DNA of 61,241 nt from the NCBI GenBank assembly GCA_944376655.1, contig CALWDJ010000012.1, positions 1 through 61,241 of the forward strand, given 5' to 3'. Below the pieces are notes generated by a model. The model was given only the letters and a program-made list of their open reading frames with translations, was not told the DNA's origin and did not search any database. Shown here in pieces: positions 9,788-61,037 of the stretch. Source of the DNA: an uncultured Clostridia bacterium (lineage in GTDB: Bacteria > Bacillota > Clostridia > Oscillospirales > Acutalibacteraceae). The position numbers and the translations under genes are program-made. The stretch's first letter is position 1. Each line of letters begins with the position of its first letter.

Positions 9788-9830
9788 GTTGTTTGGTTTG
9801 CTCTTTGAGCAAACCAGCCTAAAGGCACTA

Positions 9831-38803: not shown

Positions 38804-39043
38804 TATTTTCAGCCCCTTTCTTAACGACACACTATACCACAAAACCTTGTTCATATCCAGCGTCTTTACGAGAAGTAATAAAAAAGTCACATACTGAAGT
38901 GAATGCTTTGTTTTTCATCCCCACCGTGGCTTGTCTGTGTACCAGACGGTCGGTTTCCAAGTCGTGAACCTGCTATATAGGTTTTCTTGAATTTTAACCG
39001 CTTTTATGTTATACTATTATCAGAAAAACAGGGAGGTGTTTTC

Positions 39044-39725: not shown

Positions 39726-39730
39726 TGGGA

Positions 39731-39758
39731 GCAGATCGGCTGTGGCCGGTCTGCTTTT
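39731..39758 (+). terminator. Terminator of the mntA-hepT pair
   Basis: A ten-bp stem (39731-39740 with 39745-39754, one wobble) and T4, reaching the end of the convergent relaxase gene. Confidence 0.7.
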
Positions 39759-45206: not shown

Positions 45207-45327
45207 TTCTCTTTCCCCTAACCAAACTGTTTTCTTAAAACAAAAAGCCGCCAAAGATTTGTTTAACATAAATCCCGGCAGCCTTTAAGACAATTGGTAT
45301 TCTCATTTCTTTACTTAATCCGATAAT

Positions 45328-47076
45328 TTATATCTTCGCAATAAAGTTTCGTATCTCATTTATTTCACTGGGTTTCGAAGAAGCAAACCAACATTTTTTA
45401 TATTCCGAAAACCAACTGCTTGCACTGCGTTGCCAGCACACGTCTGTTTTTCCGTATTTCTTTATCATTAAAACAGCATCATTTAAAAGACCGATTCCTT
45501 TTGCGGCAACCGCGATAAAACCAAGCGGACCGCTGCTTTCTTTCAATACATCATATATTTTTTTACATTTTTCCGATGCCGAATAAAGCGTTTCTTCATC
45601 AGAAGTAAAACACGACGCGTCACGTGTTTCCACCCATTTATAAATTTGTATCCAGTCAGCGGAATGCTGAGCAGTGCTCAATTCTTTTATCACAGGTACA
45701 ATATCCGTATCGCTCTCGTATACGAGTTTCGATATTGATTTATTGAAATCATCGTCTGCCTGTGTTTTCACATTCCACGAAACGGATGCCCCAAATACCG
45801 CGCCGTATAATGAACATTCAGGATTACAGGGATGTCCGAAATCTCCCCAATTGGTATTGAGCATACCAATTGCTCCGGCTTTTTTGCCTGCTAGTACCAT
45901 TTGCAGAATATTGAGAACAGAAATATCAATATATTCTATAAGAGAAGACCATGATGAGGTTCCGGGGCAAACAATTTGTCTATTCCCTGTAAGACTGACT
46001 CTTTCGATTTGAGAAATATTTGGATTTTTTCCGTAATCATAATTAAGAATTATTGTGCCTTCCGGTATACGTGACAGCAAATGAGGATAATTTAAAACTA
46101 TATCTCCCCACATCATTACAGTTTTTCCAGCACCGGTTACGTGTGCGGCTATTTTAGACACAAAATCAATATAAAGCTCAGCGCTCTCTTTACCAAGATT
46201 TTTTCCTCTGCAAAGATCAAAGGTTTCATCACAGCAAATATTAAAATACTTTGAACGGAAAAGAGGAAGATATTGATCTATAAGAGAAGATACTACTTCA
46301 AAGCTTTGCGGATTGGACGCGTCAATAGTATGATGCTTCATTCTTTCAAGCCAAAAATGCGATGTGGGCTTGTAATTCTCAAGTTCACATAGATGCGTGT
46401 ATTCCTTTTTCATAAGAAGCTCATATAAATGACCGAAAGTTGAAAGTGACGGTATAAAATCAATAAAATTATCATAACAATATCTGTCTATCTCGAGTAT
46501 ATCCTCAGCAGTCAGATAATCGTCTTCGGTTCGGATACTGCTTCTGAATTCATCGAAATTAAAGCTGTGTTCAATATAAAGCTGCAGAGAATTCATTTTA
46601 AAGCGGGCAATATTGTCTACCATTTCTTTAATGCCTTTTACACTTGGCACCCGTCCGCGAGTAGCATCATGATAAAATCCGCGGTATTCCATGTCCGGAT
46701 AGTCATTTACGGTCATAGCAGAGATTGCATCCTTACTGTTATCCATTATTTGTATCAGAGTACCTATACCGTAAAAACAGCCAGCATCGTCGCCTCCGTA
46801 AATTCTGATGCTTTTTTCAGTAATTTCTATTCTGTACCCATCTTTTGGCAATTCGGTATTTTTGCTTATACAAATTGAATTTTCCCGTTCATCTGTAATA
46901 CGGGAAAATTTGTGGAAATTTCCTGTCTTATACTCGAGATATTTTTTTAATTTTAACGCAGCCCGTACAACGCGCAGGTCAATCCCGTCAGAAACATAAA
47001 TATCACAATTATTAAAGCAAAAATGTCCTTCATGTTCCGTTAGTTCTTTCGGAGCCGGTAAAATCATATATTTCAT
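45328..47076 (-). CDS. GH20-like hexosaminidase, divergent
   Basis: 582 residues, cytoplasmic (no signal peptide). The N-terminal GH20b-like domain (1-125; DGYRIEITEKSIRIYGGDDAGCFYGIGTL) is followed by a GH20 barrel: YRGFYHDATRGRVPSVKGIKEMVDNIARFKMNSLQLYIEH (about 130-170) and NICCDETFDLCRGKNLG (about 276-292), where D-E are the catalytic pair. Unlike its neighbour it has CCDETF rather than GGDE, suggesting another subfamily and substrate. AAAGGT precedes the ATG. It probably removes terminal GlcNAc or GalNAc from imported oligosaccharides. Confidence 0.82.
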   Translation of the reverse strand: MKYMILPAPKELTEHEGHFCFNNCDIYVSDGIDLRVVRAALKLKKYLEYKTGNFHKFSRITDERENSICISKNTELPKDGYRIEITEKSIRIYGGDDAGCFYGIGTLIQIMDNSKDAISAMTVNDYPDMEYRGFYHDATRGRVPSVKGIKEMVDNIARFKMNSLQLYIEHSFNFDEFRSSIRTEDDYLTAEDILEIDRYCYDNFIDFIPSLSTFGHLYELLMKKEYTHLCELENYKPTSHFWLERMKHHTIDASNPQSFEVVSSLIDQYLPLFRSKYFNICCDETFDLCRGKNLGKESAELYIDFVSKIAAHVTGAGKTVMMWGDIVLNYPHLLSRIPEGTIILNYDYGKNPNISQIERVSLTGNRQIVCPGTSSWSSLIEYIDISVLNILQMVLAGKKAGAIGMLNTNWGDFGHPCNPECSLYGAVFGASVSWNVKTQADDDFNKSISKLVYESDTDIVPVIKELSTAQHSADWIQIYKWVETRDASCFTSDEETLYSASEKCKKIYDVLKESSGPLGFIAVAAKGIGLLNDAVLMIKKYGKTDVCWQRSASSWFSEYKKCWFASSKPSEINEIRNFIAKI

Positions 47077-47157
47077 AACTTTTATACCTTTCGTGTTAAT
47101 AAGATGTTCTTTGATTATCTATAATCTCGAATGTCTGTATTACAATTAAAAAAGCTT

Positions 47158-48732
47158 TCAGTCTTTTCGCACCTTTGAAATCCTGACTTCATAATCCGGA
47201 TCATTTCGCCACAAATTACGACTGTATTTGATACGCTCTTCCATATCTTCAGGCGCTCCGTCAGGCAATGTATCGCCACGATATATGCTTTTAGCCGCAA
47301 TATTTATTCCAAGATCGGAAAAATATTTTCTCATTGCCTCAAGCCTCATCTCAAAATCCTCATATCTGCGTAGCTTTGCAGGAGTCCATTCAACTTCTGA
47401 CGCGGCGATAAGCCTTGCATATGTATTCAGATCAAATTTTTCACATGTCGCAACGCGCTCTGTCCACTGCGGTATTTCCATACCCATAACAGAGCTTTCG
47501 TCATTTAATCCGAGCATCGAAGTATCAAAGCCGTATGTTTTCCAAAGCGGACGTTCCGCATAGAGATGATCCATATAAAAATATGAAGCAAGCGATACAA
47601 TTACTCTGCCTCCGCTTTCTATCCAATTTTTTTCGGTATCAGTGGAAGAATCGTACCACCACTGAGCAACCGCATATTTCTTATCCGGATGTCCGGTATG
47701 GAGTATTTCATTCCAGCCTATCATTATTTTGTTTTTTGAAGCGAGATACTTTGTTATCCTGTCATTAAAATAGCCCTGAAGCGCCTCCTCGTCGGCCAGG
47801 CCTTCTTCACGTATGCGCTGTTGACAATAAGGACACTCTTTCCAGTGGTTTTTAGGCACCTCATCGCCGCCTATATGAAAATATCTTCCCGGAAAAAGCT
47901 CACACAGTTCATCAATGACATTTTCAGCAAAAGAGAAAAACTCCTCACGACCGACACATCCGATATTGTCATGGACTCCCCATCTGTCGCTCACCTCTAT
48001 CGGTTCTTCGGTGCAGTACAACTCAGGATAACAGGCTATGGCAGCCGTGAGATGTCCCGGCATATCAAACTCCGGTATAACCTCTATCATACGCTCTGAG
48101 GCGTAATTTACAATTTCTTTTATTTCGTTCTGGGAATAGAACATCCCCTCTCCGTAAGTTTCTCCTATGTGGTCAGGATGCTGGGTGCCGCTGTTGTCCC
48201 TTCCCTCGATTATCACACGCACAGTGCCCTTTTCTGTCAGCAATGGATATTTCTTTATTTCTACTCTCCATCCCTGATCATCAGTCAGATGCCAGTGAAA
48301 TTCATTCATTTTCAGTCTCGCCATAAGGTCGATCACTTCTTTGATCTTTTCTATTGACTGAAAATGCCGGGCGCTGTCAAGCATGAACCCCCTGAAGGAA
48401 TATTTCGGCGCATCTTCTATTTCTACCGCATCTGTTTCTCCGGATCCGGCAAGCTGTAAAAGTGTCATTACGCCGTAAAATGCTCCGCGTTCGTCTGCCG
48501 ACGAAATTTCAATATTTCCGTAATTGCAATGTATGCGGTATCCTTCATCCCGCAAAGTACTGTCCCTCTTAAATATCAGCCTGTTTTCAGCAGCCGCTTC
48601 ATATCGCGGCATCATTTCTTTTATCACCTGATAAATACCTGAATATTCTCCTTCTAACACTGTTTCAGAAGAAATCCAAACCTTACCTTCTATTTTTTTT
48701 ATTGAATACGGTTTCGGAATTATGTTGAACAT
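47158..48732 (-). CDS. GH20 beta-N-acetylhexosaminidase
   Basis: 524 residues, no signal peptide, so probably intracellular. It has a GH20b domain (about 1-100) and a catalytic barrel with RGFMLDSARHFQSIEKIKEVIDLMARLKMNEFHWHLTDDQGWR (about 114-156), IPEFDMPGHLTAAI (about 220) and FHIGGDEVPKNHW, whose D-E are the catalytic residues (about 283-284). It releases terminal beta-linked GlcNAc or GalNAc by substrate-assisted catalysis. AGAGGTG precedes the ATG. It lies 11 bp after the GH35 gene, consistent with sequential trimming of Gal-GlcNAc glycans such as mucin or milk-type chains. Confidence 0.93.
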   Translation of the reverse strand: MFNIIPKPYSIKKIEGKVWISSETVLEGEYSGIYQVIKEMMPRYEAAAENRLIFKRDSTLRDEGYRIHCNYGNIEISSADERGAFYGVMTLLQLAGSGETDAVEIEDAPKYSFRGFMLDSARHFQSIEKIKEVIDLMARLKMNEFHWHLTDDQGWRVEIKKYPLLTEKGTVRVIIEGRDNSGTQHPDHIGETYGEGMFYSQNEIKEIVNYASERMIEVIPEFDMPGHLTAAIACYPELYCTEEPIEVSDRWGVHDNIGCVGREEFFSFAENVIDELCELFPGRYFHIGGDEVPKNHWKECPYCQQRIREEGLADEEALQGYFNDRITKYLASKNKIMIGWNEILHTGHPDKKYAVAQWWYDSSTDTEKNWIESGGRVIVSLASYFYMDHLYAERPLWKTYGFDTSMLGLNDESSVMGMEIPQWTERVATCEKFDLNTYARLIAASEVEWTPAKLRRYEDFEMRLEAMRKYFSDLGINIAAKSIYRGDTLPDGAPEDMEERIKYSRNLWRNDPDYEVRISKVRKD

Positions 48733-48743
48733 TTTAACACCTC

Positions 48744-50507
48744 TTAAATGTTGGTTTTTACTGTCCTTCTATCGCGCAGTTGCACCCGAGGAGCAGACAC
48801 TTTTTCAAGCTCAAATATAATTATTTCATTTTTACCTTTACGCAGCAGCGGAGCCGGAAGATACAAATCAAGATACGGTCCTTGTTCCCAGTATCTTCCG
48901 AGATTAAAGCCGTTAATAAAAACGCAACCTTTTCCGAAGCCTGACATATCTATAAATGTGTCCCGGCAGTCTTCGGCATAAAAAACTCCGCGGAAAAATG
49001 TTGGCGTACCGTCAAAAGAAAATTCTTCTTTATACCTGATTCCTGAAATATCCTTCAACGTAATAGGATACATCGTATATCCGTACTGTATCTGTGTTCC
49101 GAGAACAACCCCCGAAAGCAGACCTTTTTCATCTTTGAGATGAGCTCCGTAGTTTATTCTTCCGAGATTTTCTACAAGCACATCCAACACTACATCATGC
49201 TCTGTTCTGTAAAACCATATATCTTCATTTACTTTGCTGCTCCGGTCAAATACACCGATTTTTTTACCGTCAGCATAATATATTGCCCTGTCATGCACCT
49301 TTCCGGGCAGCAGCTGATTATAATCGGCCGGATGCCTGACCGTTGTTCTGTAAAGAACAAACCCATAATCTGCGCCAAGTGCTTCAAACGTGAGCGGCAA
49401 AGCACCTGTGACCGGCTCAGAAATTATATCGAGGCAATCAAAAAGTCTGCAGCACCGCGTAAATTCAACAGTTCCGTAATCATACGGCCGGCAGCTGTCT
49501 TCTTCTGGAAAAACAAGCTTTTCCCCCGTAAGCATTTGCTTTAACAGGCTGTATTTTTCGGTATATCCGCCGTTTTCAGTAAGCGGAGCATCACTGTCGT
49601 AGCTTGTAGCTGTAGGCTGCAAAATATCAGTATAATTCGAACCGTTGTAAAACCCGAAATTAGTACCTCCGCAGAACATATAAAGATTAAATGATGCTCC
49701 TGCGTCTACTATTTTACTGACTGTAGCAACCATCTCATGCGGATCACGAATATGATGATTTTCTCCCCAATGGTCAAACCATCCGCCCCAGAACTCCATG
49801 CAACAATGAGGCTGACCCGGTCGCACGTTATCCATTTTACGGAAATTTTCCTCCGGTTTCGAACCAAAGTTTGCACAGGCATAAACATTATCGGTAAGAC
49901 CTCCGGTAAGCATATAATCCTGTGTGCCGTCTGCAGTAAAAAGAAATGTATCTATCCCGTACTTTGTAAAAAGTGCACGCAAAGCGGGCAAATACTTCCG
50001 GTCATTGCCATAGCTTCCGTATTCATTTTCAAGTTGCATAGCTATTACAGGACCGCCGTTCTGCCACAAAAAACGCCGCAGTCTAGGTAATAGCACCCCG
50101 TAATATCTGTCAACATACTTAAGAAACAAATCATCGCTGCTTCTTAAGCAAATATTTTTTTCACGAATCAGCCAATATGGCAGACCTCCGAATTCCCATT
50201 CGGCGCATATATAAGGCGAGGGACGCACTATAACATACAGTCCGAGTTTTGCAGCCGTTTCGATAAAAGACTCTATATCACATAAGCCATCAAAGCAATA
50301 TTTCTCAGGTTCAGGCTCATGCAGATTCCACGGCACATAAGTTTCAACGGTATTAAATCCGCAATCTTTAAGCTTTTGCAGACGATCTTCCCAGTATTCG
50401 GGTACTATTCTGAAATAATGTATTGCTCCCGATATTATTCTTAAATGCTGACCGTCAAGCATAAATCTCCCGTTTTTGATTGTTAAATTAGTTTTTATAA
50501 TAAACAC
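48744..50507 (-). CDS. GH35 beta-galactosidase
   Basis: 587 residues, no signal peptide. GH35 signatures are strong: SGAIHYFRIVPEYWEDRLQKLKDCGFNTVETYVPWNLHEP (about 25-65), RPSPYICAEWEFGGLPYW (about 95), and the acid/base region AMQLENEYGSYG (about 154-165); the nucleophile lies near MEFWGGWFDHWG (about 237). C-terminal beta domains carry FINGFNLGRYWEQGP. It removes terminal beta-galactose. The start is uncertain: the frame opens with a GTG at 50507 that overlaps the GGGGTG ribosome-binding-like run. It lies between the surface protein and GH20. Confidence 0.94.
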   Translation of the reverse strand: MFIIKTNLTIKNGRFMLDGQHLRIISGAIHYFRIVPEYWEDRLQKLKDCGFNTVETYVPWNLHEPEPEKYCFDGLCDIESFIETAAKLGLYVIVRPSPYICAEWEFGGLPYWLIREKNICLRSSDDLFLKYVDRYYGVLLPRLRRFLWQNGGPVIAMQLENEYGSYGNDRKYLPALRALFTKYGIDTFLFTADGTQDYMLTGGLTDNVYACANFGSKPEENFRKMDNVRPGQPHCCMEFWGGWFDHWGENHHIRDPHEMVATVSKIVDAGASFNLYMFCGGTNFGFYNGSNYTDILQPTATSYDSDAPLTENGGYTEKYSLLKQMLTGEKLVFPEEDSCRPYDYGTVEFTRCCRLFDCLDIISEPVTGALPLTFEALGADYGFVLYRTTVRHPADYNQLLPGKVHDRAIYYADGKKIGVFDRSSKVNEDIWFYRTEHDVVLDVLVENLGRINYGAHLKDEKGLLSGVVLGTQIQYGYTMYPITLKDISGIRYKEEFSFDGTPTFFRGVFYAEDCRDTFIDMSGFGKGCVFINGFNLGRYWEQGPYLDLYLPAPLLRKGKNEIIIFELEKVSAPRVQLRDRRTVKTNI

Positions 50508-50559: not shown

Positions 50560-53500
50560 TCACTTACCGTTTATAAGCAGCTTTTTTAAGGCAGTTATAT
50601 CCACGGCTTTTTCAATGCTTCCGTTCAAATCGCAGTCGGCAGCACTGTAATTTACTTTTACAGTAAAATCTGCCGCATATTTTTTATATCGTACTAAATC
50701 TTTCAGATCGACCGCACCGTCCTGATTTACATCGCCTTTTTCAAAGGTTGTGGCAACCGCCGAAACTTTATCATAAGCCGTAAGAGCCGAATAATGATTA
50801 TTTGATCCGTCATCATTTTTCGGGAAATCCGGGAAAGGTGTTTTTCCGTCCCACTGAAGCGTGAACCAGTTTACCGCATCTATTCCTTCAACTGCCGAAA
50901 GCTGTGAAGATAACTGTGCACGATCACCTTCTTTCACCGTCAGTTTCAAATTGCGTATTCTTACGGTTATGGGTGAATCGGAAGATACCCCTACAACCGA
51001 ATCGGTGAGACTTACAATTACGTCTCCGCAAGCCCAATGTGGATCCCCGTTTTCAGTATGAAGTATTTCTTCAACTGTCGCGGTTCGGCTTATCCAGATA
51101 TTCGCAGGAATATTCTCATATGTGTCAAATGTTCCGTAGTCTTTATATCCAGAATTGTTTGTATATTGAGGCTGCGGTCCTATTTTAATACCTACTTCCC
51201 TGCCGGATGCGTCCTCAACATATATATCATATGAAACAGTAAGATATCCCTGCATTGCCTCAAGTATTTTGCGGCTTTGAACCCATCCTAAAAATCCGTC
51301 TCCGTTATTGTGTCCGGTATTAACGAATCCGCTGTCAATAACTGCCCCGCCTGTTTCTCCTGCAGAAGTCATTTCTATTTCATAATAAGGTATCGCTTCG
51401 TCATATCTTACTTTTGAATTTCCGGTAACCTTTGAGCCGAAATTCAATGTGTCTGCTCCTGTCCACGACGGTGAAGCGTCCGTGCCGTCAGTCAGTGAGA
51501 AACGCTTAGGATCAGCTTCCCATATTACATATGACACATTATCGTTTTCAGATGCTTCAGCAAACACAGCCTTGACCGTAACATTACCAGACGGCATTGC
51601 AAAGGAATATTTGTTTTCCTCGATGCGGTTAATCAAAATATTTTTACCTTCATCGGAAATGACTGTTACAAGCTCCGCTCTGTAACCTTCTTTGGGGAAA
51701 GCCGTCACAACTGCGGTTTCTCCCGCTCTCAAAACTGTATCGGAAATACTGATATTTCCGTTTTCATCATCTGTAATATCGTTTATCGTCAAAAGATTAG
51801 GGCTGTATTCACTAAGCTCATCATACTTAATAAGCTGACCAAAATAATCCGGATTACCGTTTACATCAAGCGAAGGGGTAAAATCATTGTTCCAGTCCCA
51901 ACCTCCTGAACGTACATAATCTATATCCGCAAGATACTGGTTGAACGCGAGACGATCTTTTTCACTCAATGTCAGCTTCATTCCGCGTATATCTATCACC
52001 GCGGGATTTTCCTCGGATATATCTCCTGATACCGCGCCGAATCTGAATGCCCCGGACGACCAATGATCGCCGGCCGAATCAGATACCATATCCGTAGTTT
52101 CTTCATCAAGATTTGAATAACTGTAGCTATGCCATACATTACGCTCTGTATTAAGTGCGTCTCCGTTCTCTATGGTTCCGAATCTTGCGGAATCCCATCC
52201 TCCCCATGCAGACGCCATTCCTGCTTCAAACTCACCGGTGCTGCTGTTTTCATCTGTGCGTCTTGCCTCAAAGCTCATTGTGGCATACTGCATAAGAGCG
52301 TTTACAAACACTCTGTCGTCCTGCCATCCGCTCATACGTCCGTCATTTCTAATCAGTCCTGAAAACAGACCAGCCATTCCGGCTTCTCCTACGGTATTTA
52401 CCGTAAGGGAATAATAAGCTCCGTCCTCGTCCTCTTTTATCTCAGCGTTTCCGCTGAATTTGTTATTTATCCAGCCGCTCTTTCCGGCAAGCCCGTCCGA
52501 ACCCTCAGGAAGATTTGCCGGATTGGCGTCCCATATCACATATTCCTTGTCCTCTATCGCCGTTTCGCTTTCAAAAACCGCCGTTACGGTAAGCGCGCTG
52601 TTAGGCATTACAAAACTGTATGTAAGCGGTCCGGTACGTACAAGCGCCGTTCTGTCTCCGACAGTATCTTCCGCCTTTATCTCCTTTACCCTGTACCCAT
52701 CAGCCGGCTCAGCAGTGACGGTTACGGTATTACCCGCTTTGGTACGGTATGTAGAAAGTTTTATTGTGCCGTTTTCATCTGTAGAAGCATCTGTTATATT
52801 ATTGGTCTGAAGATTAGGGCTGTATTCACTGTGCGCATCATACGCAATAAGTCCCTCGAAGTAATCAAGAGCACCGCTTTCCTGCTTCGGGAAGTCGCCT
52901 ACCGTTGATGAACCGTTGTAATTGCCGGTAAACCAACTGAGCTTGTCTATGTTTTCTACTTCGGCAAGCGCTGAGTTCACTGCTTCTCGGTCCTCTTCCC
53001 TTATTTCAAGACACAGCTTTCTTATGCTTACCTTGACAGGTGTTTCCGCTGAAACTCCCTCTTTATCTATACTGATAAGCACCGCCGCGTCTGACCAGTG
53101 AGGATCTCCGTCCGCACTGTGAAGTATTTCCTTTACCTGTACGGTGCGCTCTATCCATTCTCCAGAAGGAATATTTTCATATTCGTCGAATGTTCCGTAA
53201 TCCGAAGTCGGGTCGCCTCCCCATTTCGGCTGCGGCTGCACGGTCAGACTTACATTATCCGTCCCTTCTTCCACATATACCTCATACGAAACATAAAGGT
53301 ACGGTTTTATTGCCTCCAGCACCGAACGGTGGCTTACCCAGCCTGTAAAGCCCAGCTTATCGTTATACCAGTTGTACTTGAAGCCCGAGCTTATCAGCGC
53401 GCCGTTCGCAGTACCGCTGCCGGTAAAGGTCAGCTCATAATACGGCATTTCCCCGCCGTACCTTACTGCACTCTGTCCTGTTGTTTTCGTTCCGAACAGA

Positions 53501-53685
53501 TAGCTTTCCCATGTCGGTTTAGCCGTTGCGCCTTCTTCCTCTGTCACATTGAGCGGATTTGCGTCCCATATCACATATGATACTTCCGTATTTAAAGCAA
53601 GCAGAAGTATACTTGAGACCGGAAGACTTACTGCAAGTACAGAGATTGCAAGAAAAAGGCTCAGTAACCGTTTGATTCGCAACAT
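50560..53685 (-). CDS. Secreted three-module protein with C-terminal dockerin
   Basis: 1041 residues. A signal peptide (1-about 32: MLRIKRLLSLFLAISVLAVSL) is followed by three related modules starting near 37, 379 and 717 with YVIWDANP, YVIWDANP and YVIWEADP, each about 240 residues and beta-rich; modules 1 and 2 are followed by a repeat ending in FVMP-(N/S)-xALTVTAVF-type strands. The C-terminus (about 983-1041) is a type I-like dockerin: DVNQDGAVDLKDLVRYKKYA and a diverged second half, DCDLNGSIEKAVDITALKKLL. No catalytic domain is visible; the modules may bind carbohydrate. AAAGGAATG precedes the ATG. It is the first gene of the glycoside hydrolase operon. Confidence 0.85.
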   Translation of the reverse strand: MLRIKRLLSLFLAISVLAVSLPVSSILLLALNTEVSYVIWDANPLNVTEEEGATAKPTWESYLFGTKTTGQSAVRYGGEMPYYELTFTGSGTANGALISSGFKYNWYNDKLGFTGWVSHRSVLEAIKPYLYVSYEVYVEEGTDNVSLTVQPQPKWGGDPTSDYGTFDEYENIPSGEWIERTVQVKEILHSADGDPHWSDAAVLISIDKEGVSAETPVKVSIRKLCLEIREEDREAVNSALAEVENIDKLSWFTGNYNGSSTVGDFPKQESGALDYFEGLIAYDAHSEYSPNLQTNNITDASTDENGTIKLSTYRTKAGNTVTVTAEPADGYRVKEIKAEDTVGDRTALVRTGPLTYSFVMPNSALTVTAVFESETAIEDKEYVIWDANPANLPEGSDGLAGKSGWINNKFSGNAEIKEDEDGAYYSLTVNTVGEAGMAGLFSGLIRNDGRMSGWQDDRVFVNALMQYATMSFEARRTDENSSTGEFEAGMASAWGGWDSARFGTIENGDALNTERNVWHSYSYSNLDEETTDMVSDSAGDHWSSGAFRFGAVSGDISEENPAVIDIRGMKLTLSEKDRLAFNQYLADIDYVRSGGWDWNNDFTPSLDVNGNPDYFGQLIKYDELSEYSPNLLTINDITDDENGNISISDTVLRAGETAVVTAFPKEGYRAELVTVISDEGKNILINRIEENKYSFAMPSGNVTVKAVFAEASENDNVSYVIWEADPKRFSLTDGTDASPSWTGADTLNFGSKVTGNSKVRYDEAIPYYEIEMTSAGETGGAVIDSGFVNTGHNNGDGFLGWVQSRKILEAMQGYLTVSYDIYVEDASGREVGIKIGPQPQYTNNSGYKDYGTFDTYENIPANIWISRTATVEEILHTENGDPHWACGDVIVSLTDSVVGVSSDSPITVRIRNLKLTVKEGDRAQLSSQLSAVEGIDAVNWFTLQWDGKTPFPDFPKNDDGSNNHYSALTAYDKVSAVATTFEKGDVNQDGAVDLKDLVRYKKYAADFTVKVNYSAADCDLNGSIEKAVDITALKKLLINGK

Positions 53686-53991
53686 AAAATCATTCCTTTC
53701 GACTTCATAACGCTATAATATTGAATTTGCCTTATTTCTCAGTCTAAAAGTAGAAAACAAACTTGGAATTTTTGGCAAGCTTCACCATTATATTTATTAT
53801 CGATATATTGAAGAACTATAATCAGTATACACATTTAATAAAATTTTGTCAATATTAAATTCTATTTTTTCATACTTTTTAACATCAATTTAACATCGAT
53901 TATTTTTATATAAAAAATAATTTGTGCAATTTGTCAGATAATAAAATTCAAAAAATCGGTTTTTAATCTTAACCCAAACAATCAACTACAT
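53686..53991. other. Gene-free promoter region of the GH operon
   Basis: 306 bp, strongly AT-rich. It contains the shared ATCGAT operator/promoter block (53783-53808) about 100 bp before the surface-protein gene. I see no gene or T-run hairpin for mgtC in the remainder. Confidence 0.6.
53783..53808 (-). promoter_or_regulatory. Shared operator/promoter block, copy A
   Basis: Minus strand: ATATATCGATAAT, AA, ATATAAT, G, GTG. TATAAT makes a -10 box and the ATCGAT palindrome lies in the spacer. It matches copy B at 56965-56990 in 23 of 26 positions. It is placed to drive the dockerin-protein/GH operon. Confidence 0.75.
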
Positions 53992-54663
53992 CTATTCTTC
54001 CGCCACAAATACCACTCCGTCAAGTTGTAATAGCGTTATGAGATCCGAATTATCGCGTTTGACCAACGCCAATTCTATTCCGATATGATCTGAAGCTCCG
54101 CTTTTGGGAGGTACTATGCGGTATGTAAATTCCTTTTGCAGATTGTCATGCACTTTATCAAGCAAAGCGTTTGTTTCATACATATTATCACACTCAATAT
54201 AGAACACAGCGGATAACTTCTTCCGCCTTTCGAGCTTTGAAAGCAACGCAGTTGCCGAAAGACACAATAAAGCCGCACCCACAGCACCTATATAAAATCC
54301 GTAACCTACCGCTAAGCCTATAATTCCTGTTGTCCAAATACCCGCCGCCGTAGTAAGACCTGTTATTACACTGTTGTTTTTCAAAATAATCATGCCTGCT
54401 CCGAGAAATCCAATACCCGAAACAACCTGTGCCGAGATTCTGAAAACATCTCCGGTTGCTCCGTGTATCTCATTGATGTAGAGACTCATCATAGATGTAA
54501 GTGAGGCGCCAAGGCACACTATCATATGAGTTCTCATACCTGCCGCTCTGCCGTGACGTTCCCTTTCATTTCCTATAAGGCCGCCTAAAACTACGGAAAG
54601 CAAAAGATTAAACACTACCTTTAATGCATAGTCTTCGGTAATCCCGGAAATAAAAAAATCCAT
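53992..54663 (-). CDS. MgtC/SapB-family membrane protein
   Basis: 223 residues. The N-terminal MgtC domain has about four to five helices, with the family motif LGGLIGNERERHGRAAGMRTHMIVCLGASL (about 26-55) and SGIGFLGAGMII; the C-terminal soluble ACT-like domain (about 150-223) includes FYIECDNMYETNALLDKVHDNL. MgtC proteins are linked to growth at low magnesium and to control of membrane ATPases. GAGG stands 8 bp before the ATG. It sits 100 bp behind the G1PDH-like gene; any link with glycan use is unclear. Confidence 0.92.
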   Translation of the reverse strand: MDFFISGITEDYALKVVFNLLLSVVLGGLIGNERERHGRAAGMRTHMIVCLGASLTSMMSLYINEIHGATGDVFRISAQVVSGIGFLGAGMIILKNNSVITGLTTAAGIWTTGIIGLAVGYGFYIGAVGAALLCLSATALLSKLERRKKLSAVFYIECDNMYETNALLDKVHDNLQKEFTYRIVPPKSGASDHIGIELALVKRDNSDLITLLQLDGVVFVAEE

Positions 54664-54763
54664 ATCGTTTTCCTCACTTTCATTATATTATTCTGCACTG
54701 TGTGATTTATGGTGTTTTTAATTTTACTAAAATCATTTAAACGAAAATATGATTCGATATAAA

Positions 54764-56017
54764 TTAAATTATCATATCCTTTAGTCTTAAAAGCGTTAAT
54801 CTGCGTCTCATATAAGGTGAATATTTTACGCAATTTTGAAAAAACTCAGGTTCTTTTCCAATATCTTCGACTGTAAGCTTACATTTCGCTTTATTCATGG
54901 CAGCACGGCATTCTTCGGCAGAAGGGACACTTCTTACTATTTTCCTTATTTCAGCCCAATTTTTTTCCAGATCTTCTGGTGTCACCTGATCTGTTATTGT
55001 ATCCGGAGTGTTCAAAATGCGTACATTATCAGCCATATCACCGTAAAAGGCATATACATCATCCCAGTCAACCATTTCTTTCTTTGCATGTATTGTTTTG
55101 GGGTTTGTAAGTTTTCTGTAATATTCCAGCATTTCAAGTGTGCAAACTCCTATATCCTCACCATGATAGTTCGGTATAATACCATCCTTCAGCTGAAGAC
55201 ACTCTATAAGATGAGCTATTATATGCTCACTTCCTGAAGCCGGACGTGAATTTTGCGTAAAACTCATTCCAAGACCGGTTTTTATAAGCGATGCAAAAAT
55301 TTCACCTGCCGTATCCTCATCTTCATGCGTCACTTTGTCAGCCATATTTATCAGGCGATCTACTGCATTCCTGGTCAGCAACGCCACTTTAGGGCAGTAT
55401 ATTTCTCCGGAAAGAAGAGATGATATTTTCCAATCACACAAACCGACATATTTTGCCATCATATCGCCGAACCCGGCCGATTTGAGTTCCACCGGAGATT
55501 TTGCAAGTATTCTTGTGTCTCCGATTATTACCTCCGGACTTTTAGCAGGATAGCTTTGCTTGAAGCCTTGATCAACTATCGGTGAACTATATGACGCAAA
55601 ACCGTCCATCGAAGGTGCCGTCGCAAACAGACAAAGCTTTTTGTCTTGTCTTGCACAGGCAAGGCGGCACGGATCGTGTATCGAACCAGTTCCGATTGCC
55701 AGAACAGAAATATCCCGACCCCTTATTATCTCCTCTATAAGCTCCACGTGCCGCATTTCAGCCACACGAAGGTCATCAAAAATATGATATTCCTTCCTGT
55801 AGCCGGACAAGCTTTTTTCAAAAGCTCCTGCAGCGGCCACCGTTTTCCTATCCCCCACTATGAGCAGTCTTTCGGCAAATTCGTTAGCACGGAGAATATC
55901 TCCCAGCTCTTCCGAGATACGCGAGCCTATCCTTATATCTTTTACAGCAGTCTTATGGTCCACCCCACACTCACAAACACCTGACATTTTATGTACGGTT
56001 TCCATTAAATTTTCCAT
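54764..56017 (-). CDS. sn-Glycerol-1-phosphate dehydrogenase-like (AraM/EgsA family)
   Basis: 417 residues from the ATG at 56017 (AGAGGAAG upstream). It belongs to the iron/zinc-dependent alcohol dehydrogenase superfamily, AraM branch: ISVLAIGTGSIHDPCRLACA (NAD-binding, about 110), FATAPSMDGFASYSS, KSAGFGDMMAKYVGLCDWK with the metal-binding Asp, and SGSEHIIAHLIE and NYHGEDIGV with metal-binding His. AraM of B. subtilis reduces dihydroxyacetone phosphate to glycerol 1-phosphate. Here it lies with an MBL hydrolase, PfkB kinase and zinc dehydrogenase, so a phosphosugar or polyol-phosphate step in catabolism is possible; inference. Confidence 0.85.
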   Translation of the reverse strand: MENLMETVHKMSGVCECGVDHKTAVKDIRIGSRISEELGDILRANEFAERLLIVGDRKTVAAAGAFEKSLSGYRKEYHIFDDLRVAEMRHVELIEEIIRGRDISVLAIGTGSIHDPCRLACARQDKKLCLFATAPSMDGFASYSSPIVDQGFKQSYPAKSPEVIIGDTRILAKSPVELKSAGFGDMMAKYVGLCDWKISSLLSGEIYCPKVALLTRNAVDRLINMADKVTHEDEDTAGEIFASLIKTGLGMSFTQNSRPASGSEHIIAHLIECLQLKDGIIPNYHGEDIGVCTLEMLEYYRKLTNPKTIHAKKEMVDWDDVYAFYGDMADNVRILNTPDTITDQVTPEDLEKNWAEIRKIVRSVPSAEECRAAMNKAKCKLTVEDIGKEPEFFQNCVKYSPYMRRRLTLLRLKDMII

Positions 56018-56074
56018 CTTAATACTTCCTCTGATATTGTAATTTTCAAACACATAACTGCTTTTAAAAAATAC

Positions 56075-56905
56075 TTAAATAACTATGGTTTTTCCGTCAT
56101 ATGAAACATCAAATCCGTATTCTGCTGCTTTTTCCGAAAATTCCTTATAAAGTACATTTTCAGCATTATGAGTAAAATGATTCAGGCAAAAATCAGTATT
56201 TTTATCAGCCGCGCCGCATTCCATTAGCTTCTGCCGCATAATCATACAATTTTCAAGATTCATATGAACATTATTATATATTTTCTGACATGCAAAGGTA
56301 CAGTCAAGCGAAACAAAATCAAACCGTATCTCGTTTTGCTTAATATAATCAAATGTGCTCTGATTATATATTCCAGTATCGTGAGCATAAAGAATTGACG
56401 TCTTGCCGTCACTTATAATGAAATTAAGAGGCATATCAGTGCCGTGCTCCGCCTTAACTGCTGTTACCTCATATCCGACGGCATGAAAAGGCTTGAACGG
56501 CTCAATAACATTTACCGTAAAGCCATAATGTTCAGCCTCATCGTTTATACTATTTTCTTCAAGTTCTTTCGCCGCTTCCTGTGAACAGTATATTTCAAGT
56601 TTATCGCCTTTTTTGAGGTTGGCAAAATATCTGCGCCGTAAGCTCAGATCCTGCGGATAAAAATGATCGGCATGAGTATGAGTAAAAAACAAAGCCTTTA
56701 TATCCATCATATCAATACCGTAATTTATTGAATGATACCATGTATCGGCATTCAGATCTATCATGAGCTTTCCATCAATCAACGCCTGCGATCTTGAGCG
56801 TATTTCTCTGCCGCCGCGTCTGCGCGCCTCCGCGCAGGTTTCACATTCACAAAAAAGTGCAGGTATTCCCTCTGCTGCAGCCGTTCCCAAATACTTGAAT
56901 TTCAT
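56075..56905 (-). CDS. MBL-fold metal-dependent hydrolase (PhnP-like)
   Basis: 276 residues from the ATG at 56905 (CGGTGA upstream). The N-terminus MKFKYLGTAAAEGIPALFCECETCAEARR resembles PhnP-type enzymes, including the CxCxxC segment that binds an extra zinc. The metal motif is FFTHTHADHFYPQDL (about 78-92); later ligands are YAHDTG, SLDCTF and NHFTH. PhnP cleaves cyclic phosphoribosyl phosphate; here a cyclic phosphate or other phosphodiester of the glycan pathway may be the substrate (inference). It heads a unit with the G1PDH-like gene, 57 bp apart, behind operator copy B. Confidence 0.85.
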   Translation of the reverse strand: MKFKYLGTAAAEGIPALFCECETCAEARRRGGREIRSRSQALIDGKLMIDLNADTWYHSINYGIDMMDIKALFFTHTHADHFYPQDLSLRRRYFANLKKGDKLEIYCSQEAAKELEENSINDEAEHYGFTVNVIEPFKPFHAVGYEVTAVKAEHGTDMPLNFIISDGKTSILYAHDTGIYNQSTFDYIKQNEIRFDFVSLDCTFACQKIYNNVHMNLENCMIMRQKLMECGAADKNTDFCLNHFTHNAENVLYKEFSEKAAEYGFDVSYDGKTIVI

Positions 56906-56964
56906 AATTATCACCGTTTCCTTTAATATAATAAATACTCTGATCATAATCTATATGTTTACGT

Positions 56965-56990
56965 CACAATTATATCGATTATCGATATAT
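56965..56990 (-). promoter_or_regulatory. Shared operator/promoter block, copy B
   Basis: Minus strand: ATATATCGATAAT, CG, ATATAAT, T, GTG. It is 60 bp before the MBL hydrolase ATG, in the 99-bp gap after the ROK gene, with a second ATCGAT half overlapping the -10. It matches copy A in 23 of 26 positions. Confidence 0.75.
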
Positions 56991-57004
56991 AAACTTAAAA
57001 ATAT

Positions 57005-58135
57005 TTAATAAAATTTGTCTATAACCTTATCAACTGCCATAAGAGCTGCTCCTATCGCAGTATAATTTTCGTCCTGATCAGAAAGAACGATATGTATTTC
57101 ACCGTTGATATGCTTTTTTATATTTTTTATAACTGAATCCTTATACAGATTCGCATAAGAATCCCTCATTCCGCCAAGCAAAACAAGTTCGGGATCAAAA
57201 AGATTGACACAGTTCGCCACAGCAATTCCTATACGAAATCCCAGACGATCAAATTCCGCTTTTGCCGATTCTTCGCCTTTTAAAGCAGCAACAGCCAAAT
57301 CGTCAAAACTTTCAGTTTGTGGAAAATATTTATGATATTCGTCAAATACAGTTCTTTCTGTTATTGTACGTTCAAGAATAACTCCCTCATTTGTACCATC
57401 GGGTATAATCATACGCCCGATTTCTCCTGCCCTTCCGCTGAAGCCCGTATAAATATTACCGTCTAAAATTACCGGAGCGCTTATTCCTACTTTCGGAGAA
57501 TAATATATCAAAATAGCGCTTTTTGCGGCGCGAGCAGCCGTATTTAATGAAATTTCTGCTTTAAGCGCACAAAAAGCATCATGAAAAACAAAAACAGGAA
57601 GTCGGTATCTCTCAAAAAATATTTCCGCAAGTCGTACATTTCTCCAGCCCTTTATATCGTAAATGCATACAGACTCACCGCCGGATAAATCAACGCTCCC
57701 CTGAACCGAAAAAGATATCGCTCTTATACTCCCTTGGTCATAATCTTTCATTATTGCGTCAACAGCACAGAAAAGTCGAGATATGATCGTATCCTTCTCC
57801 ATTACGGTATCCTTAAATACTCTGCGGCGAAGTACGCAACCGCATAGGTCTGTTACAATAACACGAAAATCATAGCAGTTGACATCAATCCCTATAAAAA
57901 TATTATTGTTCTGGTTAATTCCAACAGTTTCAGGACGTCTCCCAACAAAGGTATTCTGCTTACTTAAAACGCACAGAAAACCTTCATCGATAAGTTCGGC
58001 AGTAAGCATTGAAATTGTACTCCAGCTGAGTCCTGTAACTTCCTGAAGCTTACGTTTTGAAATTTGCCCGTATTCGCGTATCGCATGCAATATTTTACTG
58101 CGGTTTGTTTTTTTCAGATTTGCTTTGCTGTCCAT
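57005..58135 (-). CDS. ROK-family transcriptional regulator lacking the usual zinc motif
   Basis: 376 residues from the ATG at 58135 (GGGGGGACG upstream). The N-terminal winged helix (about 8-70; ANLKKTNRSKILHAIREYGQISKRKLQEVTGLSWSTISMLTAELIDEGF) precedes a ROK sugar-kinase-like domain (GIDVNCYDFRVIVTDLCG). The region where ROK proteins carry GH and CxCGxxGCxE reads GRAGEIGRMIIPDGTNEG with no cysteines, so it is an atypical regulator, probably sugar-sensing without kinase activity. It probably controls the flanking glycan genes. It has its own promoter. Confidence 0.87.
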   Translation of the reverse strand: MDSKANLKKTNRSKILHAIREYGQISKRKLQEVTGLSWSTISMLTAELIDEGFLCVLSKQNTFVGRRPETVGINQNNNIFIGIDVNCYDFRVIVTDLCGCVLRRRVFKDTVMEKDTIISRLFCAVDAIMKDYDQGSIRAISFSVQGSVDLSGGESVCIYDIKGWRNVRLAEIFFERYRLPVFVFHDAFCALKAEISLNTAARAAKSAILIYYSPKVGISAPVILDGNIYTGFSGRAGEIGRMIIPDGTNEGVILERTITERTVFDEYHKYFPQTESFDDLAVAALKGEESAKAEFDRLGFRIGIAVANCVNLFDPELVLLGGMRDSYANLYKDSVIKNIKKHINGEIHIVLSDQDENYTAIGAALMAVDKVIDKFY

Positions 58136-58173
58136 TTGCGTCCCCCCGTCAAACTGCAATAATACCTAAGACA

Positions 58174-58209
58174 AATATATCACATTAAAATATTTTTGTC
58201 AAGTTGACA
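58174..58209 (-). promoter_or_regulatory. Promoter of the ROK gene with a 13-bp palindrome
   Basis: Minus strand TTGACA (58197-58202), 17 bp, TATATT (58174-58179). A perfect palindrome TGTCAA-G-TTGACA at 58197-58209 contains the -35 box and may be an operator, though it is unlike the ATCGAT block. Confidence 0.7.
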
Positions 58210-58234: not shown

Positions 58235-59257
58235 TCAATCAAAAGTCACAATATACTTTCCCATAGCTCGTGCAACATTATCTGACAAAATTCCGGGAAG
58301 TTCTTCCAGCGTTATTTTTTTATATAACATAGAACTTACATCTAATCTGCCTGATTTTATTAAATCTAAAGCCCTTCGCTGAGTATAAGGGTTTATGAAT
58401 GAGGATTTAAGGATTATTTCTTTCTTAAAAAACTCAAAAGGCTTTACTGTTATTATATCTGACGGCTTTGTGAGTCCGTACATCATAACAACGGATTTTC
58501 TGCCGGCTATTGAAATTGCCTGCTCTATAACTGCGGGCTTCCCAACACATTCAATTACTGCGGATATACGCTTTATGCCGTGTTTTTCGGCAACCTGTGC
58601 AATATCCTCCTTCGTCGGATCAACAAAAATATCTGCTCCAAGCTTTGCGCCAAGTTCTCTTTTTTCAGCCACAGGCTCACTTAGAATAATTGTTGCAGCT
58701 CCCTTCAGTCTCGCGAGCTGAACCATGATGAGCCCTATCATTCCTCCGCCCAAAACTGCTACCGTATCACCCGCTTTTATGCCACACATATCTATTCCGT
58801 GAAGACAACAGGCAACCGGCTCTGTCATGGCAGCTTTTTCATACGAAAGCTCTTCTGAAAAAGAATAAACCTGACTTTGCGGAACGCAGCAATATTCAGC
58901 AAATCCTCCGTTGACTGTTGTCCCTATACCGATAATATTTTCGCAAAAATGTCCTCTTGCAGAAAGGCAGTTTTCGCAGTGACCGCAAAGTACATTCGGA
59001 TCAACGCATACCCTGCTGCCTGTTCTGATACCAGTGACATCTTTTCCGACTGCCACAACTTCACCGGAAAACTCATGCCCCAGAACAGTACCTGCCGGCG
59101 TAGCCGCAGCGCCTTCATCACCGTCAAAAATATGAACGTCAGTTCCGCATACACCGCAGGCATGCACCTTAATTAAAACGTAATCATCTTTAATTTCCGG
59201 CATTTGAACATCTTGCAGTCTTAAATCTCTTTTGCCGAAAAAAACAAGAGCTTTCAT
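58235..59257 (-). CDS. Zinc-dependent alcohol/polyol dehydrogenase (MDR family)
   Basis: 340 residues. Catalytic zinc region ACGVCGTDVHIFDGDEGAAATPAGTVLGHEFSGEVVAVG (about 34-72), the four structural-zinc cysteines in CGHCENCLSARGHFC (about 94-108), and the NAD-binding GGGMIGLIMVQLA (about 168-180). It resembles sorbitol/threonine/xylitol dehydrogenases. The start codon overlaps the kinase stop by one base (TAATG), with GAGGTGG upstream. With the PfkB kinase it suggests oxidation of a sugar or polyol followed by phosphorylation; the substrate is unknown. Confidence 0.92.
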   Translation of the reverse strand: MKALVFFGKRDLRLQDVQMPEIKDDYVLIKVHACGVCGTDVHIFDGDEGAAATPAGTVLGHEFSGEVVAVGKDVTGIRTGSRVCVDPNVLCGHCENCLSARGHFCENIIGIGTTVNGGFAEYCCVPQSQVYSFSEELSYEKAAMTEPVACCLHGIDMCGIKAGDTVAVLGGGMIGLIMVQLARLKGAATIILSEPVAEKRELGAKLGADIFVDPTKEDIAQVAEKHGIKRISAVIECVGKPAVIEQAISIAGRKSVVMMYGLTKPSDIITVKPFEFFKKEIILKSSFINPYTQRRALDLIKSGRLDVSSMLYKKITLEELPGILSDNVARAMGKYIVTFD

Positions 59258-60198
59258 TAATCGTCCACCTCTTTCATACTTGGTATTGACCTGATGGCTC
59301 CTTTTTTGGCAGTACTCATTCCCGCCGCCTTAACAGATCGCTCGATACACCATTTAAGTTCTTCCGGAGTTAATGCTGCACATTTCTTACCTACTTTCAG
59401 AAACGAAGCTATGAAAACTCCGAAAAAAATATCTCCTGCTCCGGTAGTATCTACTGTCTTTACCCTGAAAGACGGCAGATGTCCCGAAAGGATTTCGGAA
59501 GCAAAGTACACGCCGTTTGCACCGTCGGTCACCAAGACAATTTGAGGACCCATTTGCAGGATTTTATCAGCAGCTTTTTCTGGTTGTTCTATTCCGCAAA
59601 TTATCCGAGCTTCTTCATGCGAAACCTTCAGAATCTGAACATATTTAATATACTGTCTTATCTTTTCAAATGCGGTTTGCTCATCATTCCACAGTGCTGA
59701 CCTGTAATTAGGATCAAAAGTAATAATACACCCAGCCTCGACCGCAGCTTCAAGCGCATATTTTGTAGCAGATAATGCCGGTTCATCTGTAAGTGAAAGA
59801 GAACCGAAGTGAAAAATTTTTGAATGCTTTATCAGATCTGTGTTTACTTCAGCAGCTGTCAAAAAAATATCCGCACCGAATTTCCTGCAAAAGCTGAAAG
59901 AGCGATCTCCATGCTTATCAAGTTCGACAAACGCCAGCGTAGTATTATGATATTCGTCACGTACTACTCCCTCAGTCATAACACCGTTTTGCTTTAAAAT
60001 ACTAACAAGCCATTCGCCGAGCATATCGTTTCCCACTTTAGTTATAAAAGCAGTTTTTCCTCCGAAACGGGAAACTGCAACCAGAAGGTTGGCCGGAGCT
60101 CCCCCTGCATTTTTCCAGAAGAGACAGCTATCGTCATCTCCTATGCCATACTCAGTAAAATCAATCAGATATTCCCCTATTGCCGTAACATCAATCAT
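59257..60198 (-). CDS. PfkB-family carbohydrate kinase (fructokinase-like)
   Basis: 313 residues from the ATG at 60198 (AGGATG at suitable spacing; an upstream GTG is too close to it). PfkB signature regions are AGGAPANLLVAVSRFGGKTAFITKVGND (about 30-57) and DTTGAGDIFFGVFIA (about 250-264), which includes the catalytic Asp. It phosphorylates a ketose or similar sugar in the cytoplasm. It lies 17 bp behind the PHP gene and overlaps the dehydrogenase start, so the three are one operon. Confidence 0.92.
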   Translation of the reverse strand: MIDVTAIGEYLIDFTEYGIGDDDSCLFWKNAGGAPANLLVAVSRFGGKTAFITKVGNDMLGEWLVSILKQNGVMTEGVVRDEYHNTTLAFVELDKHGDRSFSFCRKFGADIFLTAAEVNTDLIKHSKIFHFGSLSLTDEPALSATKYALEAAVEAGCIITFDPNYRSALWNDEQTAFEKIRQYIKYVQILKVSHEEARIICGIEQPEKAADKILQMGPQIVLVTDGANGVYFASEILSGHLPSFRVKTVDTTGAGDIFFGVFIASFLKVGKKCAALTPEELKWCIERSVKAAGMSTAKKGAIRSIPSMKEVDD

Positions 60199-60215
60199 GT
60201 GGTTCACATCCTTTA

Positions 60216-61037
60216 TTAAAAATTGATCTTTATCCCCTTGCGTTTTTTGTAGTAATAATATCCATTAAAACCGATTCTTTTCAGAATCTCAACAACTCTT
60301 TTAAAGCTGTTTCCAATGTTTTGCGTGATATGTGCATCGCTTCCCAAGGTGATTTTTTCCCCGCCGAGCGACCTATAAAGGCTCAAAATACGCTCATCAG
60401 GCATAAGATAACCATTTTGTCCTTTCATTCCGGAAGTATTTACTTCAAGAGCCATATCTCTTTTTATAATTTTTCGCAAAATCTCTGTGATTTCATCCGT
60501 AAATTTCATAATGTCTGCATTTCTTCCGTATTTACCGTTTATATACCGCAACGGGCATGTAAGATGAGCTGCTATGTCTAAATCAAATTTATCTACCATA
60601 CGATTTATATACAATAAGTATTCTTCTAAAAAAGCATAAATCTCCTCATCCTTGAAGTCAGGACCGAAAGGAATTCTTGAATAAGCATCATGGAATCCTT
60701 CGAACTCCACACAGTGTACAGATCCTAAAACTGCGTCATATTCGGTAAGTTCAAGCAATTCAGCTGATTTTTGCGGGTCATAGTCATATTCTGAAAGCTC
60801 TATACCGCAGAAGACGCTTAGTCTGTCACCGTATTTTTCAGCTGCTTTGCAAGTATCGCTGATTGAACTCTTTATTCTGCTGAGGGTGTCCGTTTCTGCA
60901 TAATACCACATATCAGCATGATCGGTAACTGTTACACCCGAAATTCCTTTTTTTATAGCTGTGCTGCATATCATATCTAAGGTCTGATCCGAGTCAACAG
61001 AATTGACGCTATGTATGTGACAATCATATTTCAACAC
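60216..61037 (-). CDS. PHP-domain phosphoesterase (histidinol-phosphatase-like)
   Basis: 273 residues from a GTG at 61037 with GAGGG 6 bp upstream. PHP metal motifs: CHIHSVNS (6-13), VTDHADMW, GIELSEYDYDP, GSVHCVEFEGFHDAY, LEVNTSGMKG and LGSDAHI. The family includes histidinol-phosphate phosphatase; with no his genes nearby and a kinase and dehydrogenase downstream, another sugar-phosphate substrate is plausible. It is the first gene of the three-gene PHP-PfkB-dehydrogenase unit. Confidence 0.88.
   Translation of the reverse strand: MLKYDCHIHSVNSVDSDQTLDMICSTAIKKGISGVTVTDHADMWYYAETDTLSRIKSSISDTCKAAEKYGDRLSVFCGIELSEYDYDPQKSAELLELTEYDAVLGSVHCVEFEGFHDAYSRIPFGPDFKDEEIYAFLEEYLLYINRMVDKFDLDIAAHLTCPLRYINGKYGRNADIMKFTDEITEILRKIIKRDMALEVNTSGMKGQNGYLMPDERILSLYRSLGGEKITLGSDAHITQNIGNSFKRVVEILKRIGFNGYYYYKKRKGIKINF

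Follow-up and report, generated by a model that had tools for sequence, protein, structure and literature searches.

In a 61,241-nucleotide stretch of DNA from an uncultured Clostridia bacterium (contig CALWDJ010000012.1; the window, below, is this whole stretch), two near-identical blocks on the minus strand very probably mark copies of a 23-bp palindromic operator bound by a ROK-family repressor encoded at 57005-58135. Three copies are recognized, through which this repressor would hold back a unit encoding an MBL-fold hydrolase and a glycerol-1-phosphate dehydrogenase-like protein (the MBL-G1PDH unit), an operon encoding a secreted dockerin protein and glycoside hydrolases (GH), and its own gene, until a sugar binds. 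Sequence comparison shows the sites and how symmetric they are, ties them to one ROK clade, and places them relative to promoters, which are consensus readings throughout.

The blocks lie at 53783-53808 (ATATATCGATAATAAATATAATGGTG) and 56965-56990 (ATATATCGATAATCGATATAATTGTG) and are identical at 23 of 26 positions, as described in the first-pass annotation, which a model had made from the letters of the window. With up to 3 mismatches allowed, the 26-base pattern was found twice in the window versus not once in 100 dinucleotide shuffles, and only twice in the bacterium's own genome (1,985,638 bases, an assembly that is 96% complete; reversed control, 0), and hence is not the frequent motif that would have spoken against a regulon signature. 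Ungapped comparison of 26-mers in the window, with the best pair per diagonal kept, listed 11 pairs with at least 23 identities—6 inverted and 5 direct—and 2 of the direct pairs fall inside the dockerin gene and 1 is the pair of blocks itself. Both blocks precede a minus-strand start codon at the proposed distance of 60-100 bp: the first is 98 bp from the start of the dockerin open reading frame (ORF) at 53685, and the second is 60 bp from an ATG at 56905. This ATG is likely the real start of the MBL gene, because relatives mostly align from residue 11-15 of the longer ORF starting at 56947 and because the ribosome-binding-site-like AAAGGAAACGGTGA precedes it.

Re-reading of both blocks together with a match in a relative (G023) showed each to be an odd-centred palindrome of 23 bp, ATTATATC-N7-GATATAAT; the symmetry thus spans the whole 23 bp and not only the ATCGAT that had been noticed in the spacer. 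The order of genes and sites is ROK, operator 2, MBL, G1PDH, MgtC, operator 1, dockerin gene, and GH genes, so that the ROK gene lies upstream of both units and not, as had been stated, between them. The repressor gene, the operators, and the promoter boxes are the following:

57005-58135, minus strand: ROK-family repressor, 376 aa, with a winged helix-turn-helix (HTH), the recognition helix GLSWSTIS, and a ROK domain
58197-58202, minus strand: -35 box of the ROK promoter, TTGACA, directly adjoining operator 3 (consensus match only)
58174-58196, minus strand: operator 3, AAAATATTTTAATGTGATATATT, degenerate (12/16 outer positions), inside the ROK promoter; matrix rank 3
58174-58179, minus strand: -10 box of the ROK promoter, TATATT, formed by the final 6 bases of operator 3 (consensus match only)
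56969-56991, minus strand: operator 2, TATATATCGATAATCGATATAAT, 14/16, between the ROK and MBL genes; matrix rank 1
53847-53852, minus strand: -35 box TTGACA of the dockerin operon (consensus match only)
53824-53829, minus strand: -10 box TATACT of the dockerin operon, 17-bp spacer (consensus match only)
53787-53809, minus strand: operator 1, AATATATCGATAATAAATATAAT, 14/16 outer positions of ATTATATC-N7-GATATAAT, before the dockerin/GH operon; matrix rank 2

A 23-bp matrix built from 14 sites of other genomes, without the window sites, ranked operators 2, 1, and 3 highest in the window (17.8, 17.1, and 16.6 bits, respectively), the fourth site scoring 13.0. Operator 3 begins right after TTGACA and ends with the -10 box, and its place among the top-ranked sites within the ROK promoter indicates that the ROK gene is probably self-regulated through this decayed operator copy. 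A different palindrome had been attributed to this promoter; TGTCAACTTGACA is indeed present at 58197-58209, but the view that the promoter carries an unrelated palindrome only was rejected, since the degenerate copy of the same operator lies directly after TTGACA. Likewise, the TATAAT of the block, previously taken as a -10 box, is probably not the working one at the dockerin gene and was rejected in that role, because the better promoter TTGACA-17-TATACT lies just upstream. The transcription start predicted from that promoter falls about 8 nt before operator 1.

The palindrome recurs in relatives, all the named ones being metagenome assemblies. Among 60 genomes (the own genome and 59 relatives), the 26-base block matched one further genome, G023. 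Weak single matches in G030 and G041 were scored as well. In G023, a dockerin-protein homologue (about 40% identity) has its ORF 33 bp past the end of the palindrome, and immediately before the palindrome stands a ROK homologue (42%), which is the sole ROK match in that genome at E <=1e-20. The window contains these same elements at wider spacing. In both nearest relatives, G023 and SUG1531, the palindrome separates the ROK gene from the dockerin-gene homologue. Conservation is therefore retained upstream of a dockerin-type homologue and beside ROK homologues, and its loss, named beforehand as a result that would count against the regulon, was not observed. MBL homologues are present in 19 of the 60 genomes (own included) and are mostly 38-45% identical.

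A search of genome contigs yielded no relative with the single ROK protein and 9 loci with an alignment. In total, 14 ROK loci were tested, 12 of them found by protein search alone, by scoring the 16 outer positions over 300 bp upstream and 250 bp downstream of the ROK gene; duplicate records of G023 and G007 (one each kept) and the Bacteroidales locus L053 were left out of this count. A flank site of at least 14/16 was found at 7 of the 14 (the window, G023, SUG1531, G007, RGIG1702, G193, and G381), with five being 16/16. The remaining loci scored 13/16 (E11b35 and SIG604), 12/16 (RGIG2081), or at most 11 (RGIG8690, G259, G088, and G057). The chance per random 550-bp stretch, estimated on a background of which the MBL-homologue loci form part, is 0.0028 for at least 14, 0.020 for 13, and 0.11 for 12, and the 13s and the 12 of E11b35, SIG604, and RGIG2081 were reached in 4, 22, and 95, respectively, of 2000 shuffles of their own flanks. 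As the window and G023 served to define the motif, neither of these is a test, and SUG1531, being 95% identical to G023, is not independent. Beyond the flanks, E11b35 has a 15/16 site about 1.4 kb past ROK, and second sites are present in G007 and RGIG1702. The fifteenth locus, L053, has no site of at least 12.

Two arrangements of operator and promoter are seen at these sites. In one, the operator directly follows TTGACA or overlaps it by one base, and the -10 box coincides with the final six bases of the operator, with a 17-bp spacer in G193 and G381 and a 16-bp spacer at the upstream sites of G007, RGIG8690, and RGIG1702. In the other, a complete promoter lies upstream and the operator falls past the predicted start, as at the dockerin gene (TTGACA-17-TATACT), G023 (TTGACA-17-TAGTAT), SUG1531 (TTGACA-17-TAATAT), and RGIG2081 (TTGACT-17-TATAAT). 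Neither is clear, among 17 site rows, at operator 2, the G007 downstream site (weak TAAACA-17-TATAAT), both E11b35 sites, the RGIG1702 downstream site, SIG604, and the reversed G007 upstream site.

The sites also follow one clade of ROK proteins. Every ROK protein counted as site-bearing has 'SW' in its recognition helix (e.g., GLSWSTIS and GFSWGNIS); G088 and G057 have no SW and no sites, and G259 has SW and no site. A class-level search of 391 genomes gave 34 with a ROK match (own included); 29 further loci were examined, 4 of which are of the SW type by sequence, an assignment that in the case of L111 was made though the gene start is cut off. A score of at least 13 in the 550-bp flanks was found at 2 of the 4 SW loci (13 and 14) versus 1 of the 25 non-SW loci (13; Fisher p 0.042), and anywhere in the fetched locus at 3 of 4 versus 2 of 25 (13 and 14). 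At the third SW locus, a perfect site separates two divergent genes, at a distance of about 0.9 kb from ROK. In a tree of 26 ROK proteins, which took in 12 of the 29 class loci, the 14 proteins labelled site-bearing together with L111 and G259 form a group of 16 with a branch support of 100/100, and none of 500 label shuffles was as clustered as the site-bearing labels. This label was lenient, since it took in RGIG2081 (12/16) and, at RGIG8690 and L113, sites as distant as about 0.9 kb; L118, a non-SW locus with a score of 13, was labelled as without a site. Comparison across species thus supports the first-pass proposal of a regulon signature linking both units, with the neighbouring ROK protein as the candidate binder.

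In a sister subclade, the operator sits inside two interleaved sigma-A promoters within a symmetric 35-bp block, TTGACA-ATTATATCAC-n3-GTGATATAAT-TGTCAA, which reads TTGACA-17-TATAAT on both strands. The block is perfect on both strands (32/32) in G193, G381, and G743, and scores 29 in G433 and 25 in G471. With up to 3 mismatches, it was found in 3 of the 391 class genomes (G433, G743, and G722; reversed control, 0), and in all three an SW ROK gene is nearby (G433, 33 bp; G743 and G722, about 0.9 kb); G433 and G743 were known before the pattern was written, and the G722 site was not used to define it. In G743 and G722, one side of the block carries a zinc-dependent alcohol dehydrogenase (Zn-ADH) gene and, behind it, a kinase-like ORF, and the other side carries an MBL-fold gene and then ROK; the kinase-like ORF is of the FGGY type by eye, and its counterpart in G193 and G381 is FGGY by Pfam. 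The block has two distinct -10 boxes at a distance of 11 bp, rather than a shared one as in a bidirectional promoter, and the divergent starts are estimated to be about 36 bp apart. In the window, the best match to the 35-bp consensus of the other genomes is 58168-58202, i.e., operator 3 and its flanks (24/32; maximum of 30 shuffles, 21). There is about an even chance that the operator of the SW clade is at once the heart of such a symmetric double promoter, and that the window lineage kept a decayed copy of it at the ROK promoter and reused the bare operator behind ordinary promoters, thereby bringing the dockerin gene, GH35/GH20, and possibly a second dockerin gene at C53 into the old regulon. 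Were this so, a single repressor dimer would silence two interleaved divergent promoters, namely those of ADH and kinase versus MBL and ROK, in G743 and G722. Beside the ROK gene of G471 (L112:1415-1462), two operator-like palindromes stand side by side before ROK, the second of which, ATTATATCAAGAAGTTGATACAAT, has an 8-base centre.

The predicted repressor consists of an N-terminal winged HTH (Pfam HTH_24, E 1.9e-5) and a C-terminal ROK domain (ROK, E 2.2e-23), has Lmo0178, Mlc, and XylR as homologues in the PDB (XylR at E 4.1e-10), and is accompanied, at its own promoter or those of adjacent predicted targets, by a palindromic operator whose length is within the range of about 20-28 bp. It is not assigned as an orthologue of NagC (85.6 bits vs a curated cut-off of 650), Mlc (73.9 vs 530), or XylR, the last of which appeared only among the PDB homologues. 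The zinc motif CxCGxxGCxE of ROK domains is common, not universal. In an alignment, CxCGxxGC is absent from the proteins of the window, G023, SUG1531, G007, RGIG8690, SIG604, RGIG2081, and RGIG1702, and present in those of E11b35, G193, G381, G259, G088, and G057. Because the family scores are clear, membership in the ROK family is retained despite the missing motif; since some clade members keep it, the sugar or the sugar pocket of the window protein may differ from theirs.

From these positions we infer binding, repression, the relative strengths of the sites, and an inducer, as follows. A ROK dimer would bind before the MBL-G1PDH unit, before the dockerin/GH operon, and, more weakly, in its own promoter. 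There, the operator fills the space between the -35 and -10 boxes and includes the latter, so that a bound dimer would shut out RNA polymerase, while at the dockerin operon, with the operator just past the predicted start, it would block either the start or promoter escape. A sugar released by glycan breakdown would then free the dimer, turning on the surface dockerin protein, GH35/GH20, and the MBL-G1PDH unit together. The presence of GH35 and GH20 among the targets would point to host glycans containing galactose or N-acetylhexosamine.

Several observations weigh against this assignment. The window sites are imperfect, with 14/16 each for operators 1 and 2 and only 12/16 for operator 3, and with the 35-bp consensus, operator 1 reaches 20/32 and operator 2 reaches 19/32, both within the shuffle range. 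No convincing promoter precedes operator 2, the best one outside the operator being TTGATA-17-TATTAA. Within the clade, G259 has no nearby site (10/16 on a 5.9-kb contig), and RGIG8690 reaches only 11 in its 550-bp flanks, its 14/16 site lying about 0.7 kb upstream of ROK, before a small gene that itself precedes ROK. The 35-bp block missed the SW class genomes G471 (25/32) and G668 (gene start cut off). In the own genome, the 16-position pattern with up to 3 mismatches gave 48 sites versus 24 for the reversed control, and among the 33 of these matches that have matrix scores, operators 2 and 1 rank third and fifth, with C53:2540 at 20.4 bits, C6:63972 at 17.9, C2:4990 at 17.5, and C7:7434 also near the window operators. 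Since sites elsewhere score as high, it is position and not sequence alone that singles out operators 1 and 2. Order-wide, ATTATATC-N7-GATATAAT with 1 mismatch was too loose, matching 80 of 394 genomes with a ROK gene in 2 of 30 fetched loci, and 5 of 7 perfect palindromes among the matches listed are not beside a ROK gene.

This last result also favours the idea that a regulator other than ROK, such as a LacI- or AraC-type protein encoded elsewhere, binds the palindrome, as other proteins may read similar sites and G007 has an AraC-type gene at a distance of about 4 kb from ROK. We nevertheless hold this to be improbable: the regulator common to the loci is ROK, the site follows the ROK recognition helix and clade, and the matches to the 35-bp block in 391 genomes lie only beside SW ROK genes. 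It is equally improbable that the block is a promoter element only—a TATAAT -10 box in A/T-rich DNA or a site for an alternative sigma factor—with no repressor to read it. TATAAT is a perfect -10 box, the right arm serves as the -10 box of a good promoter in G193, G381, and the upstream sites of G007, RGIG8690, and RGIG1702, and over 16 sites the arm on the -10 side is somewhat better kept (120/128 vs 111/128 letters). However, at the dockerin gene, G023, SUG1531, and RGIG2081, a complete promoter lies upstream, the palindrome follows the predicted start, and the arms are equally kept (29 and 29 of 32); a promoter element alone would also leave aside that the sites track one ROK clade.

A recent duplication of one upstream region, by which the similarity of the two blocks would reflect descent and not regulation, is very improbable as an explanation. 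The two regions share the stretch GAC(A)AAATTTTATTAAAT beyond the 26 bases, at 53833-53850 and 57003-57019, upstream of both operators; at operator 2 this stretch is formed by the 3' end of the ROK coding sequence, so that the dockerin promoter may descend from a copied ROK-operator junction. A gapped alignment of the two regions, the score of which includes the block, reached 83 versus at most 74 in 500 shuffles. Duplication was rejected as the whole story because the palindrome recurs in other species with different flanks, including beside the relatives' ROK genes, and a copied operator would still be an operator.

Operator binding by a ROK repressor has precedents. NagR of Bifidobacterium longum subsp. 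infantis is a ROK-family repressor with 11 operators, 10 of which overlap the -10 or -35 box, and is induced by GlcNAc and its phosphates; its targets are genes for the uptake and breakdown of host glycans (PMC9599254). The regulon proposed here most likely works like that of NagR, with no claim of orthology: in both, a ROK repressor is encoded in its own target region, the operators are palindromic, and the targets (here predicted ones) serve glycan degradation, with GH35/GH20 behind operator 1, which lies after the predicted start, and overlap with the -10 box at the ROK promoter being the features seen in the window. Unlike NagR, the present system belongs to another phylum and has three sites in the window as opposed to 11 (PMC9599254). 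XylR of Clostridia and Bacilli, also an HTH-ROK repressor with an inverted-repeat operator, was assigned a 25-bp operator in Clostridia, ACTTattAAAnnnnnTTTaaAAAgt, by comparative genomics (PMC2873477); this differs from ATTATATC-N7-GATATAAT, and no xylose genes were recognized among the predicted targets in the window. RokB of Streptomyces coelicolor is likewise a ROK protein that binds an inverted-repeat operator (TTTGTTC-11-GAACAAA) with sites at its own promoter, has a second motif with a conserved centre, and is suggested to have amino-acid gene targets (PMC4856308). ROK regulons of Thermotoga are treated in PMC3750489. A search of the full-text literature with the half-sites gave, among the matches listed, none that looks related by title, with published ROK motif logos outside the comparison. 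Key papers on ROK operators include those of Kazanov (2013) and Brechemier-Baey (2015).

The bidirectional promoters of E. coli and Salmonella have one shared -10 box and starts 7-25 bp apart, most often 18 (PMC12825309; PMC10268837). The 35-bp block of the sister subclade resembles them in being symmetric DNA that would fire both ways, but interleaves two full sets of -35 and -10 boxes and has the operator as its centre of symmetry. According to a 2026 study in E. coli, nothing was known on how bidirectional promoters are controlled (PMC12825309); the block, with an operator and two divergent promoters in the same 35 bases, would provide a simple natural test case. For the window, the proposed regulon would place, in an uncultured gut Clostridium, the surface dockerin protein and a set of enzymes for glycan degradation under one repressor with exact candidate sites. 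The predicted targets and neighbouring genes are listed below:

58235-61037, minus strand: Zn-ADH, PfkB kinase, and PHP genes, upstream of ROK
56075-56947, minus strand: MBL-fold hydrolase (Lactamase_B_2), a predicted target whose real start is likely 56905
54764-56053, minus strand: glycerol-1-phosphate dehydrogenase-like protein (Fe-ADH_2), predicted target, below the NCBIfam cut-off
53992-54663, minus strand: MgtC-family membrane protein, possibly in the MBL-G1PDH unit
50560-53685, minus strand: dockerin-bearing secreted protein with InlB-type repeats, whose gene opens the target operon, with 37% homologues in G023 and SUG1531
42099-50507, minus strand: GH35, two GH20, and a GH106-like gene, predicted members of the dockerin operon, with gaps of <100 bp after the dockerin gene

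The GH106-like gene scores just below the Pfam cut-off, and the Zn-ADH is distantly related (25-35%, in a large family) to the ADHs beside the ROK genes of the sister subclade. Genes for a tyrosine integrase and a MobL relaxase adjoin the GH operon (37299-41112), and a mobile element may border, or may have carried, this glycan island. Outside the window, the site C53:2540-2562 (L106) lies behind TTGACA-17-TATTAT and about 0.1 kb before a gene for a BspA-type leucine-rich repeat (LRR) protein with a dockerin, which is a candidate further target; the opposite side of this site holds a gene for a sigma-70-like factor. The operon that follows the site in G007 codes for a GatZ/KbaZ-like protein, a ROK kinase, and a protein with a weak match to sulfoquinovose isomerase far below the cut-off. 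In the same region as a second G007 operator, and divergent from the HAD-ROK unit, are genes for a PrsW protease and a TIR-LRR protein and a weak match (below the cut-off) to the Card1 endonuclease (L039:13262-17277).

Two further repeats were noted. The 23-mer ATTTTAACTCGATTTTATATAAT, or its complement, occurs 5 times in the own genome (C4:47, C17:45330, C21:18, C23:30185, and C43:4489), twice within 50 bases of a contig start, and is thus a multi-copy element. An exact 26-base direct repeat is present in the window at 9829-9854 and 10314-10339, about 485 bp apart.

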